Shown here: in pieces, positions 12,498 to 64,000 of the stretch | How positions within the stretch are numbered: the stretch's first letter is position 1 | Layout of the letters: the number at the start of each line of letters is the position of its first letter | Made by a program: the position numbers and the translations under genes | Origin: Daucus carota subsp. sativus | Lineage: Eukaryota > Streptophyta > Magnoliopsida > Apiales > Apiaceae | Assembly: GCF_001625215.2 (NCBI RefSeq) | Contig: NC_030381.2 | Coordinates: 53,059,214 to 53,123,213 of the forward strand | Length of the DNA stretch: 64,000 nucleotides | Direction of reading: 5' to 3' | Notes under the pieces: generated by a model | The model's input: only the letters and a program-made list of their open reading frames with translations | Told to the model about the DNA's origin: nothing | Database searches by the model: none

Positions 12498-15051
12498 ATG
12501 GGGATCTGCATATCCACTGCATCTTATTCTTCTGAGATCTATGATATTGAGCATGGCCCTGAGAATGCTGTGTTTTATGAAGAAATGAAAGATGCAGCTG
12601 AAGAGAATCAATTACTCTGTTCTCTTCATTCTCAGCAAGGCAGTAAAGGGATAAATCAAGATTATGGGATCATATATCAGGTACAGTTATGTTTTGTTGA
12701 GAATCTTTAACTGAGTTACTGGTTTTTCACTATGTAAATGAAACTTGTATAACAGAAGATGTTCTAAGTTTAGACTTGGAAGAACTTTGCTGGTATTGTT
12801 GGCATTCTTGGTTTTAGCGGGAAGGAATAGAATGAAAAATTATGAACAAAATTTAAGACGAAAGAACGCGATGTTACGATAAGGGCACTTTTGTTCTTTA
12901 TTGAATAGAATCATGATTTAGTTGCAAACCTTCTGATTATAGATTACCTTTGTTGTTTTCTTTATAAGGGCTATGGAATGGAAATGGGAACTTTCTGCGG
13001 AGTCTTTGATGGGCACGGAGCAAATGGTCATACGGTTAGTAAATTGGTTAGGAACCGGTTGCCTTCGTTGCTGTTGAATCAAAGAAATGATATCGTGAAG
13101 TACAATTCACTATCAAACGACGATAGGAATCTTGAGAACTGGAAAGAGGCTTGTGTTAGCGGATTCAGGGTGATGGACAAGGAGATTAAGCTTATGGAAA
13201 ATCTGGACTGCACTTGCAGCGGAACCACTGCTGTTACTGCTATGAAACAGGTGCTTATTTACATAGGTTTTTGACATTAATGTAAAAACATTAATGCTTG
13301 TATGCATTTTAATTGGTCAAAATCTTTGCAGGGTGAGGACCTTGTTGTAGCTAATCTTGGTGATTCAAGAGCAGTTCTGGGAACGATTGGTAAGAATGGA
13401 ATCCGGGCTGTTCAGTTAACCACAGACTTAAAACCATGTGTTCCCAGTAAGTTAGTCCTTATTTTCTTCCATTCTGAATCGGATTCGTAAAAGTTTTTGA
13501 TCAGATAATCTGGGCGTACCTTGTGTTGTTATAATTGTGTCATTTGTGTTGTAGTGGAAGCAGAGAGAATTAGATCATGCAACGGTCGTGTGCTTGCTTT
13601 AAAAGATGAATCACACGTTCAACGAGTATGGTTGCCTCAAGACCAGAGCCGGGCCTGAGGGTGTGCAGAGTGTTCGACGGAACAGGGCCCTAAAATATCA
13701 GGGGCACATTTTTTTTATGTAGGTTTATATATATATGTATAGTCAAAATGAAAAAAAAAATAGCTAAAAAAGTAAATTTTATTTTTAAGATTAAAAAATT
13801 GTAAATGAAAAAAAAATTAAAAAATATTATACACTTCAATAATTTTTAAATGTTATCTTAAATAAGTTATATAAATTCTAAAAAAATACTAATATCATAA
13901 TCATGTTAATAGAAATAAATACTTGCATTGAAAATAATGGCATTGAAAATTGTAAAAGTTACCCTGCTCTCGAGGTAAAATTCTAATTTAACTGCTAACT
14001 TCAATGACTTCATTAAAATTCTACTTATACTATTTTTTTTCTTTCTTAATGACCATATACAATATTATATCATTAAAATAATGATTCAATCTTTAGTAAC
14101 TAATTTATTTTAAATTATATTTATTTTTAATTTATACATGCATATATATATATATATTAAATATGAAACAAGTAATTTAAATATAAAATGCATTGAATAA
14201 TGGGTTTATATAATTTTAAAACAAGTATACCTCTAATATAAATTAAAATTGTTAAAGTTGCTGAAATCATACTTGAGGTCAACAATGTCGCATGAGAGAT
14301 TGAATGGATTAGCACCGTTATCCATAGAAAATAGTTTGCTAGAGAATGTAGATTATAAAAATATTATTAGTGATTTTGCTTCAAAAAATGCTAGAAGAAC
14401 AATTTTCAGATAATTTTATATTATTTATGTACTCTTTTTATTTCTCAACAATTTTCAGTTAATTTTTGTAATATGAAAAAAATATTTTATGCACTTTAAT
14501 TGTGATATGATTTTTACAGTTTTGTGTCAATTTTTATTCTTTCATGTACTTATATTTTTAGATTATTAGAGCAGTATTAGGGCACACTTTTTACATTTTG
14601 CACAGGCACAATAAATCTCAGGCACGGCCCTGCTCAAGACGACTCTCCAGGCTTAGCCATGTCTCGAGCTTTTGGGGACTTCATACTCAAAAACCATGGT
14701 GTAATTTCCATTCCACATATCACGTATCATCGTCTAACATCTTCTGACCAGTTCGTGGTGCTTGCAACAGACGGAGTAAGCCTGCATTTCTCAAACAACT
14801 AAAATCATATCTCAAATTCCCTTCTATGGAACTAACAAGTTCAATTGCAGGTTTGGGATGTGCTGAGCAATAATGAAGTGGTATCGGTTATATGGGCCGC
14901 AAAGAGCGAAGAAGCCGCGGCTAAGGCAGTGGTGGATGCAGCCATAGTTGCATGGGAACACAAGTACCCAACAACAAGAAGGGATGATTGTACTGTAGTA
15001 TGTCTCTTCTTTCAGAAGAGTGTGCATTACAACAGTAGAGCACAAACATGA
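12498..15051 (+). CDS. Protein phosphatase 2C, interrupted by a hAT insertion
   Basis: Exons 12498-12680, 12969-13250, 13332-13446, 13555-13643 continuing at 14641-14775, and 14851-15051. Without the transposon these join in frame to 334 residues of a PPM/PP2C serine/threonine phosphatase. PP2Cs are Mn/Mg-dependent enzymes that often damp stress and hormone signalling. Seen: N-terminal MGICIS (Gly2, possible N-myristoylation), NQD, GVFDGHG (metal-binding Asp), ANLGDSRAVL, SPGLAMSRAFGD, ATDGVWDVLSN and the final DDCTVVCLF metal site. A 989-bp hAT element sits in exon 4 directly after codon 223. Reading into the element adds Q-S-R-A and then a stop, so a direct translation would lose the C-terminal metal-binding motifs and be inactive. 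The 3' half is still fully open, so the break is probably recent. The plant PP2C clade is not certain; the MGICIS start suggests a clade-E-like protein. Confidence 0.88.
13644..14632 (+). mobile_element. Non-autonomous hAT transposon in PP2C exon 4
   Basis: The element begins CAGAGCCGGGCCTGAG and ends with the inverted copy CTCAGGCACGGCCCTG (14 of 16 match). It is flanked by a perfect 8-bp duplication CTCAAGAC (13636-13643 and 14633-14640), which is the hAT signature. Positions 14281-14415 (+) still translate to a C-terminal hAT transposase relic, with residues like ERLNGLAPLSIENSLLE followed by DYKNIISDFASKNARR, after which the frame is lost. Most of the transposase is missing, so mobility would need a partner enzyme. 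Confidence 0.92.
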
Positions 15052-17369: not shown

Positions 17370-18691
17370 CTAGTGAAAAAAGCCGCGCTTCGCGGCGGCG
17401 TGATAAATTTTGATATGAATCAGAATTATAATAGGATAAAAATTATTTTGAGTCATCTTCCTATTAAACATATCACAAATAAAAAATATTATAATTGATA
17501 TAAAAATTTGTTTAAGTGATCAACCTGTCAAACACAACACAAATAATAAAATTAGTTCGAACCCCCCCTCCCGTCAAAGACAATATTAATCCATAATTAT
17601 TATTTTTATGATAAATTAAATATTATAATTTAGATCAAAATTAGTTTGAGCCGCTCTCTTGTCAGACACAATACTTATAACAAAACATTATAATTTAGAT
17701 ATTAGTTTGGGTCGTTTTAGTGTCAAACACAATACTAATAAAACTTATTCTAATTATGAAAAAATTAAAGATTATTTTGAATTGTGTAACAAAAAAATAT
17801 ATTATAACATAGATAAAAAATTATTTTAGCGACTTTACCGTCAAACATAATACTAATAGAAAATTTATTATTATTTGGATAAAAATTAGTTTGGGCCGCC
17901 TCCCGTGCCCGTCAAACGATATACTAATCAAGAACCGTTTACATTATCATAAAATCAATATATGATACCTATTTTTTATATATTATTTTATTTGTTAATT
18001 ATTTTTATTTTTTGATTCCTATTTATTAGTTAAAAATTATTATTCTTTTATAAAAATTATTTTAACGACTTTCCCGACAAACATAATACTAATAGAAAAT
18101 TTATTATTATTTAGATAAAAATTAGTTTGGGCCGCCTCCCGTGCCTGTCAAACACAATACTAATCAAGAACCATTTACATTATCATAAAATTAATATATG
18201 ATTCCTATTTTTTATATATTATTTTATTTGTTAATTTCTTTTATTTTTTGATGCCTATTTATTAGTTAAAAATTATTATTCTTTTATGGTTCTAATTTTT
18301 GTTGCTATCAGTTTTTTTAATGATTATTATCTTTACAATCCTTTACTAAATCGATAATAAAAATTGTACGTATTACCATACAAATCTTAAATATAAATTA
18401 TATTTTATCTATGATTTTGTTAGTTTGAATAAATATAATCCTATTTCTATTAGAATTACTAAATAAGAAAAGAATTGTCTCATCTTTAGAATTCAATAAG
18501 AAATACTAAATAAGAAAAGAACTGTATCATCTTTGGAATTCGATAAGAAAATAGTTGTATTACTTTTAGAATTCTTGAACATGATTTTTTGAATTATAAC
18601 TATATTTTCTCTCCGAAATTTAAGAAAAATCAGAAGACTGAATCGAACAATTCTAGAGACGCCCGCATCCTCCTTTATATATATATATTGA
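17370..18691 (-). mobile_element. Probable non-autonomous Helitron
   Basis: On the minus strand the right end reads GCCGCGAAGCGCGGC (a hairpin), then TTTTTTCA and CTAG, followed by T. This is the Helitron 3' signature. The far end on the minus strand begins TCAATATATATATATAAAGG, which fits plant Helitron 5' ends beginning with TC. The base before this TC is G rather than the expected A, so the 5' border is less sure. The interior is a degenerate tandem array (see next entry) and has no open reading frame. Confidence 0.6.
17440..18289. repeat. Degenerate tandem array inside the Helitron
   Basis: A unit of roughly 60 bases recurs, built around TTAGTTTGGGCCGCCTCC and GTCAAACACAATACTAAT. Clear copies start near 17500, 17640, 17700, 17880 and 18117. 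The last part is also a clean 236-bp duplication (17811-18046 against 18047-18289), sharing GACTTTACCG/GACTTTCCCG and TTTACATTATCATAAAAT. Confidence 0.75.
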
Positions 18692-34941: not shown

Positions 34942-35859
34942 CTAAACAATACTGAGATCGTCCATCCAGCTAAATTCACCCAAGAGACAGCCATACCTAT
35001 CCATCAAAATCGGACCCGACTGCAGTAACATATCAACAGCTTCTTGTTCTACTATTCTTCGGCTCAAACTCCTCTCTGCCTGGTAATCAATATGAATAAC
35101 TTCCATTGCCTGGTCATCAGAACCAATGACATTCACCGAAACATCACAATCATCAGACTGAGATTCTCCACGAGACTCAACAATATTTGCATCATCAAAT
35201 CCAACTAATGTTGCTACCTGATCATCAAAATCAGCTAATTTCACCACAACATCAGAATTATCAGGCAAAGATTCTGCATTGGACTCCTCGTGGCCACTAA
35301 CGACTTCTTGATCATCACCTAAGTTGTCTTTCCTTGCAATAGCCCGGAGTTTGAGTTTTTCATGTTCCATTTTTTCCGACTGATAAGCCTTAGAAGCTTC
35401 CTCCTGTGCTGTATAGCTACCAAGACATATCCGAACACCTTCAATCGTAACACCGTTTTTCTCACCATCAAAATCAACACCCTTCATCACCTGATCATCA
35501 CAAACAACTACACCATCGTCGCCATCATCACAGAAAGCCTCAACCTCTTGATCACCAACAAACTTGTCTTTTTTCACAGCATCCTTAAATTTAATCTCTT
35601 CAAGTTCCATCTTTCTCATCTGATAAGCCTTAGAAGCTTCCTCCTGAGTTGCGAAACTACCAATCCACATTCGAACATTCTTCTTCTTCGGGTGCTCGAT
35701 CTCCGCGACCCACCTGGACCTTTTCATCCTGACACCTTCAAGCTTCATAGGAACTTGTTTTTCAGACAAGCAAACTGCGTGTCTTCTTGTCTTTCTAACG
35801 GTAAAATAACTCGTGGCAAGATTTTTGGTAACTGATTTTCTACAATTTTTCTTAGCCAT
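34942..35859 (-). CDS. AP2/ERF-like protein with one and a half AP2 units
   Basis: An intronless gene of 305 residues. Residues 41-88 form an AP2/ERF-like DNA-binding domain: GVRMKRSRWVAEIEHP, then MWIGSFATQEEASKAY, matching the YRG and RAYD elements (WIG in place of WLG; some conserved residues are absent). A second partial unit at 141-167 (GVRICLGSYTAQEEASKAY) repeats only the C-terminal half. The DNA for ATAAGCCTTAGAAGCTTCC on the plus strand is identical in both, about 240 bp apart, so the unit arose by internal duplication. The acidic middle carries three loose copies of DDQ-x-M/A-xxxVxFD (121-131, 212-222, 248-258). The C-terminus is GEFSWMDDLSIV, acidic and hydrophobic, as in activation tails. 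ERF proteins are nuclear transcription factors that bind GCC or DRE boxes; whether this one binds DNA is not certain. A TATA-like TTATAAAA lies at 35895-35902. Confidence 0.75.
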   Translation of the reverse strand: MAKKNCRKSVTKNLATSYFTVRKTRRHAVCLSEKQVPMKLEGVRMKRSRWVAEIEHPKKKNVRMWIGSFATQEEASKAYQMRKMELEEIKFKDAVKKDKFVGDQEVEAFCDDGDDGVVVCDDQVMKGVDFDGEKNGVTIEGVRICLGSYTAQEEASKAYQSEKMEHEKLKLRAIARKDNLGDDQEVVSGHEESNAESLPDNSDVVVKLADFDDQVATLVGFDDANIVESRGESQSDDCDVSVNVIGSDDQAMEVIHIDYQAERSLSRRIVEQEAVDMLLQSGPILMDRYGCLLGEFSWMDDLSIV

Positions 35860-35894
35860 TGTTCTAATTCTCTGTGTTTTTCTAAAGCTTTTGC

Positions 35895-35902
35895 TTTTAT
35901 AA
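35895..35902 (-). promoter_or_regulatory. TATA-like box of the AP2-like gene
   Basis: Minus strand CTTATAAAAGC, only about 40 bases before the ATG, so the leader would be short. An alternative promoter further up is possible. Confidence 0.4.
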
Positions 35903-36030
35903 GCAAAAATTTGAGGAACTTACCTACTCGGACACAAGTGAAGATTGGTCTTATCATCTTAATTCTATGTTACTTAGTGAAGCGTGGGGCCATGCGGCGA
36001 TCTTCGCAGAACCTGCGGTAATACATACAG

Positions 36031-36203: not shown

Positions 36204-36606
36204 TTCCATACATTAATTAGTTCTTGAGCACCAGTGTTGTGCTGTAATATTTATCTCAAATATCCAAAATATTATCCTTCCTCCGACTCAAATTATCTCT
36301 TTCTTTCGATTTTGAAAAAGTTAAATTTTTAGTTATGAACGATTAAAATGGACTAATTTTTTACTAAATATTAGTGAAAGATATTTATTTATCATTCTCA
36401 AAATAGAAGGTTATATTTCAAAATAGTATATATATTTTGCAACAGACCAATTACATGATTCAGCTAAATTCGTTAATGGTCGTTCTCACAGTTAAACAAT
36501 GCTGATTTTTCTGTTCCACTTCCACTAAAATATTCCAACGAGTCAACCAAGTCTAGTCTTTGCTAAAGTAGAATTTACTTCATACTACGCGGTCCACCAA
36601 CCTACC

Positions 36607-37157
36607 TAGAGGTGGCAAAATGTAGTTTTGGTTTGGTTTTGGTTCTTATAAAATGGATTTGGTTTGGATAGATGAACCAAAACCATTTCCAAACCATATA
36701 TTAATAAATGTGGTTATGGTTTTAGTTTGAATTATGGGTAACTAGTTTAGTAAATAAAAATAAATTTTATATAATGAACAAAAGTTAATACACTCAAATC
36801 ACAATATAATGAATACTAAATATAACAAAAGCATGTGTGAGTGTGTGAGTTGATGGAGTGGTTTAAGTTCTTGGCTTCTCCAAGTAAGGTCATGAGTTCG
36901 AATCATGGGATGTGCATGTGTGATAATTAGCAAAAAGAAAAAAAGAAAAGAAAAGGAACCTAATAGTGTGTGTGGAGAGTTATAAGAAATCTTAAAAGTG
37001 AGACCAAATGTGGTTAGAACCATATTTTGTGAGAAATGTGAGACTAAAAACCAAACCAAATCCATTTTTCTAAATGTGATTTCAAATGGATCCAAATTCA
37101 CAATTTTGGTTTGGTTTGGATTGGTTTAATGGTTTTGCATCCATATTGCCACCTCTA
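36607..37157. mobile_element. Non-autonomous hAT element, TIR TAGAGGTGGCAAAATG
   Basis: The left end TAGAGGTGGCAAAATG and the inverted right end TAGAGGTGGCAATATG match at 15 of 16 bases. The flanks are a perfect 8-bp duplication AACCTACC (36599-36606 and 37158-37165). The interior has inverted TTTGGTTTGGTTT tracts and no transposase frame. A tRNA-like insert lies inside. Confidence 0.9.
36841..36913 (+). repeat. tRNA-like 73-bp insert inside the hAT element
   Basis: The segment contains an A-box-like TGATGGAGTGG (36851-36861) and a B-box GAGTTCGAATC (36894-36904), spaced as in a tRNA gene. A central TTGG/CCAA stem fits an anticodon arm. It is 73 bases long and bordered by the 10-bp direct repeat GCATGTGTGA (36831-36840 and 36914-36923), followed by an A-rich run (36931-36957). 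The acceptor stem does not pair well, so it is better read as a tRNA-derived retroposed fragment or short SINE than as a working tRNA. Confidence 0.65.
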
Positions 37158-37184
37158 AACCTACCCTTTCAACTTGACGGGAAT

Positions 37185-53488: not shown

Positions 53489-54811
53489 CTGCACGGAATC
53501 ACACGAATGTGAGGATTGATCTATCCAATTACACACAGATCTGTGTGTTGATTATTCACAACGTGTAAATTAAAATCACCTTTCTGCAGATCAAAAATTG
53601 AAAGCTGGGAGAAGATAATAAAATATATGTGTGTTTATGCGGGGGGAGAGAGAGATCGAGAGAGAGATCTGAGAGAGATAGCTGTATAAAAAATGAGGTG
53701 GGCGGAATCAGGCGATTCGCTGGCAATTTGTTGATGGTAAATACCGATTTCTTTTTGTTTATGTGTAGTTTTTTGGTGAATATTTGTTTTGGATTTTTAA
53801 AGAATAAAGAATTCATATGGAAAAATGGAATGTTATAATTTTCGGCCTTTTGTTGGGAAAAAGATTATCTTTTATAAAAATAGTAGCAAAGTGAGGTTTT
53901 ATAAGTTTTCTTTTAAATTACTAAAAAATGTTATATATTAAAAAAAATTGTTATGAAAATTTAACTAAAAGTTAGAAAATGATACAAATAAATATCAGAA
54001 AATAATAATTAAGTATAAGTAATTTTAGATTCACGGTGTAAAATATGCAGAAGAGGTGGAATAATGAATATGTGAGTTAAATTTATAATTTGAATGAAGA
54101 TTGAATAAATAAAAATCATAAACATTTTTTATCATCACTCATAATTTAAGATGATAATTCGAAAAAGAGATTGATGTTGTTAGTTCAAATAAAGTGATGA
54201 AACATTTTTTTCTCTTCTTTATAAGCAGCAAATGAAATATTCTTCTTATTATGATTAATTTATAATAATATAATTTTGAATGAAAACAATTATGCAATTG
54301 TATAGAAAATAAAAATATTATATAAAAAATAAAAATTATAAAAAAATTCTCAATGTCAAGAATATTATATTTCGATGCCAAAGAATTTCGTTTTATCTTT
54401 CAGATCAAATTTCCTTCTCATCGAAGAAAATAAAATTGACTTATACAGTATATATAATTTATACCACCTCTGTGAATCCTTCCTTGTCACAACTCACAAC
54501 TCCTCGCGACTCGTGAGTCATAATCTCAATTCTCAAGTCTCCTCATCATCGACCTATTTTCATCCTCAATCAATTAAAATCTTTATCATTAATCGCTTTA
54601 TCTTTAAGTTTCATCATTTCTGCAAATTTAAACTCACAGGTAAGTACATATTTCGTTGTATCATTTGTATATATAGTTTGTGATAGATCTTTTGTTTTGT
54701 GTATGTAATTTGTGATTCTAGATCGGTTATAACTGAATACTTGTATGTATAATCTTGCAGGCTCTGTGAATTGTCCGATTTTGTCGGAGTGAATTTCGAG
54801 GTTGATCCACG
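53489..54811. promoter_or_regulatory. Divergent spacer between epsin and SNF7 genes
   Basis: The start codons of the two genes are 1.3 kb apart on opposite strands. The epsin side has a GA-rich tract (53641-53670 on the plus strand). The SNF7 side has TATATAA at about 54451-54457 and a probable leader with one intron: donor ACAG/GTAAGT at 54640, acceptor CTTGCAG at 54760. The middle is AT-rich with no gene. Confidence 0.6.
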
Positions 54812-57468
54812 ATGTTTACACGGATTTTCGGAAAGCCTAAGCAAGAGGAGAATGCTGTTGCTACGTTAGACAAGTTGAATGAGGTATTCGGTTTATTTGG
54901 TGTTGAGTTTAATTGTTGAAATTGCGGTTTTGTTTGTGTATTTGAGTGGATGATATGATCAGATGATTGTAGTTGTGTGTGTTTGTTAAGTGTTGTTGCT
55001 TTGCTAGGATAGACAAGTTAGATGAGGTATTCGGTGTATGTGTCGTTGATTTGCTTGTTGAAATTGCGGTTTTCTTCGTGTATTGGGGTGGATGATTTTA
55101 TCAGGTGATTTTAGTTGTGTGTGTTTTCCGGTTTATTTGTCGTTAACTGTTTGTTGAAATTGCGGTTTTATTCGTGTATTAAGTATTGTTGATTTGCCAT
55201 GCTAGACAAGTTAAATGAGGTATTCGGTTTATTTGTCGTTGATTTGCCTGTTGAAATTGCGGTTTTATTCGTGTATTGGAGTGGTTGATTTGATCAGGTG
55301 ATTGTAGTTGTGTGTGTTTGCTAATTGTTGTACTGTTGCTACGCTAGACAAGTTAAATGAGGAATTTGGTTTATTTGTCATCAATTTGCTTGTTGAATTT
55401 GTGGTTTTATTCGTGTATTCGAGTGGATGATTTGATTAGATGATCGTTGTTGTGTGTGTTTGTTAAGTGTTGTTGCTGTTGCTACGCTAGACAAGTTAAA
55501 TGAGGTATTCGGTTTATTTGTGTGGAGTTTGCTTGTAAAAATTGCGGTTTACGCCGCGTATTCATGTGGATGATTTGTTCAGGTGATTGTAGTTGTTTGT
55601 GTTAAGTGCTGTTTTTTGCTGTTCCTAGACACTTGAGATGCTCGAGAAAAAAGAGAAAGTGCTATTGAAAAAAGCTGCGGCGGAAGTTGAAAAGGCCAAG
55701 GAGTTCACGCGAGCCAAAAATAAAAGAGGTATATCGCAGTAGATTTGTCGTCTCTTTTGTAATTTAATGTTGCCGTCGATTTTATATGCTTCCTTTGATA
55801 TGAGTTATAAGAAGGTGCATTATTAATCTCCATAACTTGAAGATTTAGTTTAGTTTGGGAATTTTGTTCATTAAATATTATGAGTTACTGCGTATTGCAC
55901 CAAATTCGATCATTTTTTTTGTGCTCTCGATTTAAATTATGTTTCTTGTGTACAGCGGCAATACAGTGTTTGAAGAGGAAGAGACTTTACGAACAACAAG
56001 TGGAGCAGCTCGGAAATTTTCAGTTACGTATACATGATCAGGTGCGACGATAAATGACTGAGCTAATTGATCATAAGTTTTATTTATATAAGTCTTTGGA
56101 TTAAATAGTTGCAATATAATCATGTTAATTAAACATTTGTTTCAGATGATTATGCTAGAAGGTGCAAAAGCTACAACAGAGACCGTTGATGCTTTGAGGA
56201 CCGGAGCAGCTGCTATGAAGGCCATGCAGAAGGCAACGTAAGTTCGAGTTCACTTTAAGCTTCATATACTGCTTTTGCTCACCTGCAATTGAACTAAGAA
56301 ACATATAGTATTATATTTTCTCTCTTTAGAATCAATTGAACACTGATTACATCTACCCTTCCCCGGTCAATAATTAGGCAATAATATTTGTTATTTGCAA
56401 TGTGCACAACACTTTCTAATTGTTCATTTCTTGATAGACATGATCACAGGACATTGAAATACTGCTTGACATATGGGTTACGTACTCTGTTACGACTGTT
56501 ATACTAAAACAATTCGTAGAAGATGACATTCATTAATTGGCCAACTTAAATTACTTTAACGTATATAAGATGGTTCATAACCAAATGGTTAAAGAGTAGT
56601 AATTGCCATATAATTATAGTACTGTATACACTCTTGTCTTCTAGTAAGGTTATATGATTTTTGATCGGTTATATTGTATCCTTCTCCGCTTCTCTGCTAA
56701 CAAAGTCTTTATCCTGCAAAACAGTTATTACATCCCCATTTATCACTTTATTGTGCAAGTCTCATGAGACCAAAATGCTCCACACACTTTGGCTGTTTAA
56801 GCTTAGAAATTAGGATATATATAGCGACTGATTTCTATTGGGGTATAAATATGAATATTGGGAGACGTTTTAAAAGCATCACTCACCAGATCCCTTGCTA
56901 ACTGTTAGTCTTCATGTACACGATTAATCTCAGATTGGTATAACTCAAAACAAACATTGAAGATGCAATGAGTTCTGATTGTAGTGGGCAGTAATTACAC
57001 AATTGAGCACTTTATTATGGATGTTTCATATGATTAGAAAAATACTTATATGGATTTTTATCTTATGCTTGGTATTTTTACCAGGAATATTGATGATGTT
57101 GACAAAACAATGGATGAGATTAATGAACAGACAGAGAACATGAAACAAATTCAAGATGCACTGTCAGCACCCATCGGAGCAGCAGCAGATTTTGATGAAG
57201 TATGTGCTCTGATTTTTGATTAATATAGAATAAATTCTTTAAAGACATCTTTTAAGCTTCAAGTTTATTCTTGCAGGATGAGTTAGAAGCAGAGCTTGAA
57301 GAATTGGAAGGAGCTGAGTTGGAGGAACAGCTTCTTCAGCCTGCTACAACTGCCCCTACTACTTCTGTGCCTATTCCTGCAGGTAGGCAACAAGTACGTC
57401 CAGCTCGTCAGCAGAACACAGCTGAGGATGATGAACTTGCTGCATTGCAGGCAGAAATGGCACTATAG
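54812..57468 (+). CDS. ESCRT-III subunit SNF7/VPS32 (CHMP4 family)
   Basis: Six coding exons: 54812-54883, 55629-55728, 55956-56041, 56146-56237, 57085-57199 and 57277-57468, in frame to 218 residues, the usual length. SNF7/VPS32 polymerises on endosomes and drives budding of intralumenal vesicles in the multivesicular body pathway. Seen: MFTRIFGKPKQEENAVATL, a basic helical hairpin (KKEKVLLKKAAAEVEKAK, AIQCLKRKRLYEQQVEQL), LEGAKATTETVDALRTGAAA, then the acidic half NIDDVDKTMDEINEQTENM and ELEAELEELEGAELEEQLL, and a terminal ELAALQAEMAL amphipathic helix like the MIM/Alix-binding region. The leader has an intron (54640-54760). The 3' UTR may also be spliced: donor ATG/GTAATC at 57473 and acceptor TTTTGCAG at 59370. 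Intron 1 contains tandem copies of the exon 1 end. Confidence 0.93.
54861..55620 (+). repeat. 143-bp tandem array built from the SNF7 exon 1/donor junction
   Basis: The end of coding exon 1 with its donor (GACAAGTTGAATGAG/GTATTCG, the GACAAG at 54869) recurs in intron 1 as GACAAGTTAGATGAGGTATTC (55012), GACAAGTTAAATGAGGTATTC (55205), GACAAGTTAAATGAGGAATTT (55347) and GACAAGTTAAATGAGGTATTC (55490). One further unit, near 55128, has lost this part. The unit also holds GTTGAAATTGCGGTTTTATTCGTGTATT-like and GGTGATTGTAGTTGTGTGTGTTTG-like words. Spacing is 142-143 bases where units are complete. Confidence 0.92.
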
Positions 57469-59291: not shown

Positions 59292-60219
59292 TATAGTATA
59301 ATTTTATATTCTGAAAAGATTAGTTTCCTCAATGATGGTCTTATCTGACATTATGTTGTTGCTTTTGCAGTTCTGATGATCAAGAAGAAATTGTGTAAAG
59401 AATTTAAAGGATTGAATGTAATCTATTATGGAGTTCCCAGATTTCATTTTCTTAATGAGCAATTGCTGGTATGAGGACAATGTATAGACGATAATTTCAA
59501 GAGAAAATATATTACATCTTGAATCTGGTTTCTCTTCTGGTGTTCAAGTTTCTATTCACAAAATTTTAATTATATTTTTGATATTTTGATACTTTGCTTG
59601 ATTGTGAGATTTTTTGAGTATAATATTGTAGTTGATATATTTGGAGCCTGAGATAAGACTGAAAGATTATGTATTCAGATTTCAGGGGATGGAATGTTGA
59701 AATTTTTTGCAAAGTGTAGATTAATTAAGTAAATCAAATTATTTATGGACTCATCCAAACAAATTAAATTGAAAAAAGTTGTTCATCATGTGATATATAA
59801 GTGTGAACCATTTCATCAACAAAACATTAGAAAAAGGTCATAATAAAAATGAAACAAGTCTATTATGATTTTAAAATATTTCAAATTGACCAAATTGTGA
59901 CAGTAATCTACTTATGTTATATATAAGATTAATTTAAAATAAATCAATGAAACAGATGCAGAGAGGGTTCAGGGTTCATGTTCAAACAAATTAAACATGC
60001 AGACAGAACATTTTTCTAGGTAGGGCCTTTGATCAAATGCATCCCCTGGACTCTGGAGGCATTATAGGGAGTATTAGAATTCTTCTTGATCACTTAGGAG
60101 TATGTAATGATCATTTATATGGATCATGAAGAATCCTTTAATATTAAGAAAATGAATGTATCATATGAACAACAACCTTCTGTAAATTCAATCTGGGTGT
60201 TTTTTGTTGCAATTTTCAT

Positions 60220-61201
60220 CAGTGGCGGAACCAGAGGGGGGCTAGGGGATGCTAGAGCCCCCCCTAACCTCAAAAATACAGTGTATATTTTTTTTTCAGC
60301 CCCCGCAGAATTTGTGATGTCAATATAATTTTATTAGCTCTGTTGAATTATAAATGTCATAGAGAGGGACTTATTATAAAAGAAGAAAAGAGAAGACACT
60401 TAGTCTAAAGAGAGTCTAATTAACAAATACATTCAAACAGATACACTGAGAGCAACTAGATCATGCAAACTGTATGATGCATGCCGAGTACTTTGTACAT
60501 TAGAAAAATAATATAAATTATAGTTCTTAAGTTCTTGAAGAGGTGTTAGGAGCTCCTAAACTCCCGATGCTTCAAAATATACCTTGTTCATTAGCAAATA
60601 GAGCTCCTAAGTTCTTGAAGAGCTGTTACGAGCTTGTTGGAATTCATTTCATCTCCATATTTTTCAAATTTTGGCTAAAGAGCCCATACGAATAAGCTTT
60701 TGGACATGCTCTCATAAGTCATACACACACATTGACTTTATATTGGCTCTTTGGATTTTAGAAATTAATTTTCGAATTTCAATAACTCAAAAATGGTGTT
60801 CCTTGCACAATTTTATCCAAAGGATTTCTCTTTACTAGACTTGGAGTTGTTGCCAAATCAGCTGCACAATTTTATCTATGATATGAGAGCGGAGATTAAT
60901 ATGGACTTCAAAATATAGGAAATCTTTCTGTCATGATGGTTAAAACACATAGACACACTCTTATCCCTTAGTTTATCTTCCGGTTGAGTTAGCTCTGGTT
61001 TTACCGGTTGTCATTACTACTGTTGAGAGAGTTTTTTTTGCTATGAAGTATGAAAGCAATCAATACTTATCAGCGTAATAGGATGGAAGATGCATGAATG
61101 AATGATAGTATGATGATATATATTGAGAAAGCTATTTATGCAAGTATGGATGACGAAATATTTTTCAGCCCCCCTAATTTTTAGTCCTGGTTCCGCCACT
61201 G
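60220..61201 (+). mobile_element. Non-autonomous hAT element with 15-bp perfect ends
   Basis: It starts CAGTGGCGGAACCAG and ends with the exact inverse CTGGTTCCGCCACTG. The 8-bp duplication ATTTTCAT is perfect (60212-60219 and 61202-61209). At about 61000-61160 (+) a decayed hAT transposase C-terminus can be read across frame breaks: a TTVER-like run, then RMEDA.MNDS and YIEKAIYASMDDEIF. 982 bp long; deleted derivative of a larger element. Confidence 0.92.
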
Positions 61202-61813
61202 ATTTTCATATTGATTTATAGATATGAACTTCGTGTTTCTACATTTCTTCATTTCTACAGGAGGAAAAAGGGGTCATGGGGGTGACTTTGAGAGGCAGGA
61301 CAAGTCTCAAATCTTGATTACAAGTGTAATGAACAAGCGAAAACGATTGGTGGAATTTTACCCCATAAGAAAGAAAATGCTGATGATGCATGAATCTTAT
61401 CGGATTAAAGTCGCTGTATGTAAATTTTTTATTTATTTTTGCAAATTTGATGCATATTTATTTTTTGCAAAACGGCACTGATTTGGCATATACATAGATG
61501 AGAACTGCAGCAGTATCCAATACATTTCAAGTGTATATCAGGTAAGTTCAAAGACATATTAAAGTCTGGAAGGAAAATTTGCAGGTCTGACATGCAAAAA
61601 AGACCCTTAACTTCCCCTGAGTTTTTATATCAGCCCCACAAAAGGCAATTTTTCAGAACCTTCCCCCCACTTGGTTTGAAATTGTATGCTACATATTGCA
61701 TAATGCAGATGTGTGAGTGTCTGTGTTCACGTCAATTTTACCCTCATGCACCTTTCATGACATTGACCAGTAGAAAGCAAATAGATGCAGTTGATGTATG
61801 TTAAAGTAATAAG

Positions 61814-62286: not shown

Positions 62287-63443
62287 CTAGTAATTTCCAT
62301 AGAATTGGTCATTGACATTTTGACACACGGTTGAATTTGCATACGAATTACTTGGAAGATTGATGAGAGCTTCTCCGAGAGTCTCCTGGCCTTGATCATT
62401 ACTCCAAATCCCAGCACTCATCATCTGATCATAACCGAATCCGGATCCAAAATCCATCAGAAACTCAGAGGCATTGTTGTCCACAGCAGTAGATGAATCC
62501 GAAACACTTGAATATTCTTGGACATTATTCCCAGTTTGTGTATAATGCATAACACCAGCATTCGATGGCTCTTCCTGGAGAAAACAGTTGCCTTGATAGA
62601 TATTTGAAAACCCGAGATCATAATTACCTTCGACGTTTGGATTTAAATTGTGATTCGTCGATGAAGTTGAATTTGAACTCTGAGGAGCTTGATGAATGGC
62701 AGCAAAGTAGGAGTCTTTTGTAGCCTGGAGCTTTTTTTTGAGTTTGGTGTTCCAGTGATTCTTCACATCATTGTCTGTTCTTCCAGGGAGACTTGCAGCT
62801 ATAACAGACCATCTGCATCAGTCCATAGATTAAACTTCGATTGAATTTAAACCAAACACGAATATTATGCATTGTTCTAAAAATCGGTGATTAATATCGC
62901 GATTAATCACCGAATAATCGTCATTCCGTATCTCGCCGAACTAATAAAAATTTTAATTGTTCAATTAATTATCCGCCTGATCCTTGTTTCACGTTCTCAC
63001 TGATTAAGTCCGATTTCTGCTTTTTACAACAACATTGATATTATGTAATAAAATATGCGATATTATGTAAAAGTATACCTGCTTCCAAGAATACCATAGA
63101 GATTATATATGATGCCGTCTTCTTCAGGAGTAAAAGCGCCATGCTTAATGTCTGGCCTTAGATAATTAAGCCATCTCAGGCGGCAGCTCTTGCCGCAACG
63201 TTTAAGGCCTGTTAAATTTAATTTGTTAGAAGATAATTATTTGTCAAGGCAAATTCGAATTCAGTCTTCATACTAAGAAAAACATGGTATATATGCAACA
63301 GAAATACACAAAGCATCTTTATTTTCATCACATCTGTGTTTGTGAGACTTGAGGAACAATAAAATAAGCAATTTAAGTTGAACAATATGTAGAACAGAAG
63401 AAACATCAACAGAGGGGGAGAGAGAGTGGGAGTGAGAGAGAGG

Positions 63444-63488
<45 letters not shown>

Positions 63489-63570
63489 GGGGAAGGAAGG
63501 GGGGGAGAGAGAGGGAGGGGGAGAGAGAGAGGGAGAGGGAGAGAGAGGGGGGGAGAGAGAGGGGGAGAGG

Positions 63571-63618
<48 letters not shown>

Positions 63619-63753
63619 TGCTCTGAGAGGCAAAGAAATCCAGTTCCCCCCAGTGCCATGATTCTGCAGATAATTCTTCAAGATTTCATCTTCTTGGGGA
63701 GACCAAGGTCCTCTCTTCACTTTACTCTTATCACAACAAGGTGCCCTTCCCAT
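62287..63753 (-). CDS. R2R3-MYB transcription factor (MYB36/RAX-like group)
   Basis: Three exons on the minus strand: 63753-63618, 63208-63079 and 62812-62287, in frame to 263 residues. R2R3-MYBs bind MYB sites in promoters in the nucleus. Seen: [21 protein letters not shown]2 with [11 protein letters not shown], the junction [19 protein letters not shown]3 with [20 protein letters not shown] then [20 protein letters not shown] and [10 protein letters not shown]. These fit subgroup 14 (RAX1-3, MYB36, MYB68, MYB84, MYB87), which acts in meristem initiation or endodermis formation; I cannot choose a member. The tail is Ser/Asn/Gln-rich. The exon 1 donor reads CAG/GCATCT, i.e. GC in place of GT, followed at once by a long CT tract. 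The second intron (266 bp) is mostly a hAT-type MITE. The ATG was chosen by the conserved MGRAPCC; an in-frame ATG upstream exists but is not conserved. Confidence 0.9.
62870..63037. mobile_element. hAT-type MITE in MYB intron 2
   Basis: Left CATTGTTCTAAAAATCGG and right CCGATTTCTGCTTTTTAC plus AACAACATTG are imperfect inverted ends. A perfect 8-bp duplication ATATTATG flanks it (62862-62869 and 63038-63045). Without element and one duplicate the intron would be about 90 bp, a usual plant intron size. Confidence 0.85.
63414..63614. repeat. Long (GA)n/(GGGA)n microsatellite in MYB intron 1
   Basis: About 200 bases of GA with GGGA and GGGGGA variants, starting at the fifth intron base on the minus strand (as CT). 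Open frames over it on either strand are artefacts of the repeat. Confidence 0.95.
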
Positions 63754-63836
63754 CCTTATCTCTCTCCCTCTCCACAACACATCTACAAACTCAAAACCCA
63801 AACAACAATCACACAAACTGATCCACCGAACGAGCT

Positions 63837-63844
63837 TATATACA
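63837..63844 (-). promoter_or_regulatory. TATA box of the MYB gene
   Basis: Minus strand GTATATAAGC about 85-90 bases before the ATG at 63753. Confidence 0.6.
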
Positions 63845-64000
63845 CACAAGCGCACTAGACTCCACAATCACACGTACACATATTCATATATCTCTGCATG
63901 TGCGTTTGTACTTTTATGACTATTTTTAGCTAAACTTACTAAGAACCAAACTAATGGAACCCGTTTTTGGAAGCTCATGACTCTGCATGGCCTTGTTTCC
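63845..64000. other. Upstream flank of the MYB gene at window edge
   Basis: Promoter-side sequence of the minus-strand MYB. No other feature seen. Confidence 0.5.

Follow-up and report, generated by a model that had tools for sequence, protein, structure and literature searches.

The window analysed here, a 64,000-nucleotide stretch of the carrot genome, carries on its plus strand a five-exon gene (12498-12680, 12969-13250, 13332-13446, 13555-14775, and 14851-15051), the fourth exon of which is split by an inserted element. The domain content and the motif blocks place the interrupted gene among the plant PP2C phosphatases, with the corresponding activity predicted. Exon 1 covers codons 1-61, from the ATG start to the donor CAG/GTACAGTT, and exon 2 covers codons 62-155 with the VFDGHG motif, in agreement between the gene model and Pfam. 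The gene model further gives exon 3, with the GDSRA motif and phase 1 at its end, and the 5' part of exon 4 (13555-13643), which reaches codon 223 and includes the left copy of the duplicated target site. The 3' part of exon 4 (14641-14775), containing PGLAMSRAFGD and the start of ATDGVWD, and exon 5, containing the remainder of ATDGVWD, DDCTVV, and the native stop, are again supported by both the gene model and Pfam.

All eight modelled borders of the four introns are GT/AG, and the coding sequence with the flanks of the element joined comprises 1005 nt (334 codons and a stop) without an internal stop. Each half separately matches the Pfam PP2C family (PF00481; E 3.1e-18 and 1.4e-19), and the two halves cover positions 35-159 and 168-247 of the 255 in the profile. 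A Protein Data Bank search with the joined protein returned plant PP2C structures, with 3nmv_B ranked first (E 1.2e-21). The motif blocks of the joined model lie at codons 73 (VFDGHG), 165 (GDSRA), 226 (PGLAMSRAFGD), 265 (ATDGVWD), and 313 (DDCTVV). No relative of the PP2C exon was confirmed in viral contigs.

Elsewhere in the window we observed a tandem array of diverged repeats, each about 142 bp long (54853-55627), and a 236-bp unit in two tandem copies with 94% matches (17816-18287). Two minus-strand reading frames were also seen: a MYB-like frame at 63406-63867 (Pfam Myb_DNA-binding, E 3.1e-7), which continues directly into an extended GA/CT simple repeat (63418-63614), and a 325-codon open frame at 34942-35919 with a sub-threshold match to the AP2 domain (28.8 bits at a cut-off of 33.3). 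Rfam and bacterial-code tRNA scans across the window gave no match.

The inserted element

The element occupies positions 13644-14632 (989 bp) between two copies of the direct repeat CTCAAGAC, identical in 8 of 8 positions and located on the plus strand at 13636-13643 and 14633-14640. Its 16-bp termini, at 13644-13659 on the plus strand and 14617-14632 on the minus strand, form inverted repeats matching in 14 of 16 positions (CAGAGCCGGGCCTGAG / CAGGGCCGTGCCTGAG, the right end being reverse-complemented), and its GC content is 23.3%, compared with 33.6% for the whole window. The 8-bp target site duplication (TSD) characteristic of the hAT superfamily is thus present directly outside the inverted ends, and this duplication together with the short ends points to an element of the hAT type. 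There is good support for a hAT-type transposon having broken the PP2C exon, with the C-terminal motifs lost as a result.

As a control for chance occurrence, we counted structures in which an 8-bp direct repeat of at least three different letters, its copies 100-5000 bp apart, directly bounds inverted ends, both in the window and in 60 sequences simulated from it by a first-order Markov model. At a threshold of at least 14 of 16 matches, which was picked after the element had been seen, the window contains three such structures compared with two in total over the 60 simulations; at a threshold of at least 12 of 16 it contains three, compared with 60 over the 60 simulations. The three structures at the higher threshold are the element in the PP2C exon and two other hAT-like insertions. 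One of the latter (60212-61209, 982 bp) has ends CAGTGGCGGAACCAGA/G matching in 15 of 16 positions and an exact TSD ATTTTCAT; the other (36599-37165, 551 bp) has ends TAGAGGTGGCAAAATG / TAGAGGTGGCAATATG, likewise matching in 15 of 16, and an exact TSD AACCTACC. The 60212-61209 insertion contains an open frame with a presumed resemblance to a fragment of a TTF/ZMYM1-like hAT transposase.

The element in the PP2C exon is probably non-autonomous. It contains on the plus strand a 58-codon open frame (14237-14413), which we take to resemble the C-terminal tail of the TTF/ZMYM1-like kind of hAT transposase and which may be what is left of that end of such a protein. Neither this frame, the only one of the element to be searched, nor a 50-residue part of it matched a Pfam family, so the element is not demonstrated to be autonomous; in particular, the hAT transposase dimerisation region expected of autonomous members was not found in the tested frame. 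Non-autonomous hAT members do not require a transposase. The only match of the 58-codon frame in the Protein Data Bank is to an unrelated Rab family protein (E 0.42), and no relative was confirmed when viral contigs and the genomes of bacteria and archaea were scanned by pattern. Since none of these searches recovered a relative, the transposase identity of the frame is unproven.

A second full copy of the element was not found within the window. The best off-site match, at 54262-54348, was rejected as a further copy and read as low-complexity similarity, as it overlaps an A-rich tandem stretch (54296-54347). At 42.8 bits it scores above every one of the 60 shuffled controls (maximum 41.9), by a margin of only 0.9 bits, and it is less probably a small fragment of the element.

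Product and transcript of the interrupted gene

The insertion point lies exactly between codons 223 and 224, in the fourth of the five modelled exons. In translation of the unspliced insert, the frame ahead of the element ends in ...VWLPQD and continues for four residues (QSRA) to an in-frame TGA at 13656-13658 on the plus strand, within the left terminal repeat; beyond the element it reads DSPGLAMSRAFGD... and is open up to the next splice site. The assembled copy accordingly encodes 227 residues, 223 native and four from the element, and lacks the C-terminal third of the phosphatase domain. The PGLAMSRAFGD, ATDGVWD, and DDCTVV blocks are all gone. In PP2C enzymes, the aspartates of the ATDGVWD and DDCTVV blocks bind catalytic metals; two metal-binding aspartates are therefore missing, and from its lost motifs the 227-residue product is most likely inactive. 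The original prediction of a 989-bp hAT element with an intact 8-bp duplication between codons of exon 4 was thus correct to the base. Its further claims agree with the gene model as well: reading into the element gives four residues and a stop, ATDGVWD and DDCTVV both lie past the insertion, and the 3' half has remained open with its splice sites intact.

No donor site within the element escapes the stop, because the earliest GT (13661) lies 3' of the TGA. This GT is also the top-scoring donor of the element (6.4) among those scored, up to position 13799, where this and all other splice-site scores given here are built on assumed, approximate plant base frequencies. Splicing from 13661 to 14605 would remove most of the element but keep the TGA and shift the frame, and it was rejected as a rescue. 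The TGA precedes the exon 4/5 junction by 1117 nt with the element retained and by 172 nt if 13661-14605 is spliced; because of these distances nonsense-mediated decay is likely to act on the messenger, unless polyadenylation takes place within the AT-rich element. The element has two plus-strand AATAAA signals, at 13914 and 14610, and transcripts could therefore end within it.

The best explanation for these features is that a short, apparently non-autonomous hAT-type DNA transposon entered exon 4 of a plant PP2C gene, duplicating 8 bp of its target by cut-and-paste insertion, a route suggested by its family. Reading of the unspliced insert would meet the stop after four codons and yield the 227-residue product without the C-terminal motif blocks, most likely inactive, while the messenger would likely be decayed, resulting in loss of function. 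We consider it highly probable that, through such an insertion, the gene as assembled is now a natural loss-of-function allele or else a young pseudogene.

Splicing, age, and alternative explanations

To restore the coding sequence exactly, splicing would have to remove a 997-bp intron whose two ends sit at matching positions in, or next to, the two TSD copies. GT-AG, GC-AG, and AT-AC borders are absent at all nine possible offsets, so exact restoration is impossible by standard splicing and exact splicing-out of the element is ruled out. The original prediction had named this outcome as the one that would speak against it; in fact it cannot arise by standard borders at all.

A less precise removal would make the element an imperfect new intron, in which a cryptic donor in the exon, at 13626 or 13585, and an acceptor in the right end of the element, at 14580 or 14605, produce an in-frame phosphatase with a changed loop. 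There is some basis for this in the sites themselves, as acceptor 14605 scores 8.3, inside the range of the real acceptors of the gene (5.6-8.4), and donor 13626 scores 5.1, compared with 5.0-8.1 for the real donors; moreover, titles in the reference list of PMC3260210 describe maize Ds1 as intron-like and alternatively spliced from exons. The two sites, however, do not fit each other. Donor 13626, the only decent exonic one, cannot be joined in frame to acceptor 14605; the only acceptors that keep its frame, 14580 and 14751, are weak (3.6 each), and the donors in frame with 14605 are themselves weak (2.1 and 1.5). Combination of the six exonic donors with 42 acceptors gave 252 GT-AG pairs, 19 of which are in frame to the native stop and eight of these retain SPGLAMSRAFGD. 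Native residues are altered or deleted in all 19 products, and none of the 19 pairs has both a donor and an acceptor at least as good as the weakest of the gene. The highest-scoring acceptor of all, at 13722 towards the left end of the element (score 11.6), gives an in-frame full-length product with none of the six exonic donors. As the in-frame products all alter residues and none pairs two good sites, partial rescue by cryptic splicing is unlikely. An imperfect new intron is accordingly a very improbable explanation of the locus, and its more specific form, a newborn intron using acceptor 14605 or 14580 with some transcripts encoding a PP2C that has an element-derived, remodelled loop before PGLAMSRAFGD, is slightly more improbable still.

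The insertion would have had no effect on a duplicate gene that had lost its function before the transposon arrived. The PP2C family of plants is large, with 80 members in Arabidopsis according to PMC2612031, and redundancy is plausible for this reason. The gene, however, has no other disabling change in its 1005 coding bases and eight modelled splice borders, and no second PP2C was found by tblastn, whose two additional matches in the window have E values of 3.0 and 8.6; we therefore regard earlier death of the gene as very improbable. Least probable of all, and hardly to be expected, is an artefact of assembly or haplotype, with the insertion absent or present in one haplotype only. A heterozygous insertion would appear identical in a collapsed assembly, but the exact TSD and the paired termini, unlike a misjoin, are a mark of real transposition.

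The lack of disabling changes in the coding bases and splice sites bears on the age of the insertion. Under neutral decay, the 95% bound on divergence is 0.013-0.030, or 1.8-4.2 Myr, on the assumptions that substitutions accumulate at 7e-9 per site per year, that the ratio of indels to substitutions is between 0.2 and 0.05, and that the entire gene has been unselected since the insertion; the 336 bases 3' of the insertion taken alone give 5.5-13.2 Myr. The identical TSD copies constrain the age almost not at all, and an exact TSD is no sign of special youth, because two other hAT-like insertions in the window share it, in a scan that demanded an exact TSD and to which insertions with a decayed TSD are invisible. 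The youth claimed in the original prediction is hence upheld in part: the flanks are free of disabling changes, but they set only a loose bound under the assumed rates, within which the insertion is probably recent.

As a case of a phosphatase gene knocked out by a transposon, probably recently, the locus is a clean one. The insertion can serve as a presence/absence marker and, if it is polymorphic, as a natural null allele; it leaves the understanding of hAT elements and phosphatases unchanged.

Comparison with known systems

The closest Arabidopsis gene is presumably AtPP2C72 (At5g26010). It shares with the carrot gene the PP2C domain and motifs, and its 331 residues, as listed in PMC2612031, compare with 334 codons in carrot; the carrot copy differs in being interrupted, and the putative orthology is a lead only. 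Searches of an open-access library gave no paper on a PP2C gene with a hAT element or MITE inserted, which says little; a broader search gave one paper, in which PP2C does not occur.

Among known insertions, a non-autonomous hAT element of 1,335 bp lies upstream of PAR in Taraxacum and was placed in the superfamily by its TSD, according to PMC10485273. It resembles the carrot element in its 8-bp TSD, a size of about 1 kb, lack of autonomy, and imperfect short terminal repeats. The carrot ends CAGAGCCGG / CAGGGCCG are also similar to its ends CAGGGCCGGCCA / CAGAGCCGGCCC, with common starts CAGGGCCGG / CAGAGCCGG, in a comparison made on the termini. The Taraxacum element is upstream of a gene, whereas the carrot element is in a coding exon. 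PMC10485273 suggests that imperfect ends likely prevent excision of the Taraxacum element and, by analogy, those of the carrot element could prevent its excision too.

The maize Ac/Ds system, as described in PMC3260210, belongs to the same superfamily and makes the same 8-bp TSD; Ds is non-autonomous, and its Ds-l4 class has a mean of about 1 kb. The 11-bp Ac/Ds ends C/TAGGGATGAAA are unlike those of the carrot element, and the intron-like splicing of Ds1, known here from reference titles in PMC3260210, contrasts with the carrot insertion, for which exact restoration by splicing is impossible. In peach, the hAT MITE mMoshan in exon 3 of PpLMI1 is correlated with raised expression and a nectary phenotype (PMC13359793). 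This case shares with the carrot one a hAT insertion in the coding exon of a plant gene and differs in the gene concerned. The presence of hAT elements in plant coding exons is thus already documented, and the carrot insertion adds one more case of an ordinary type.
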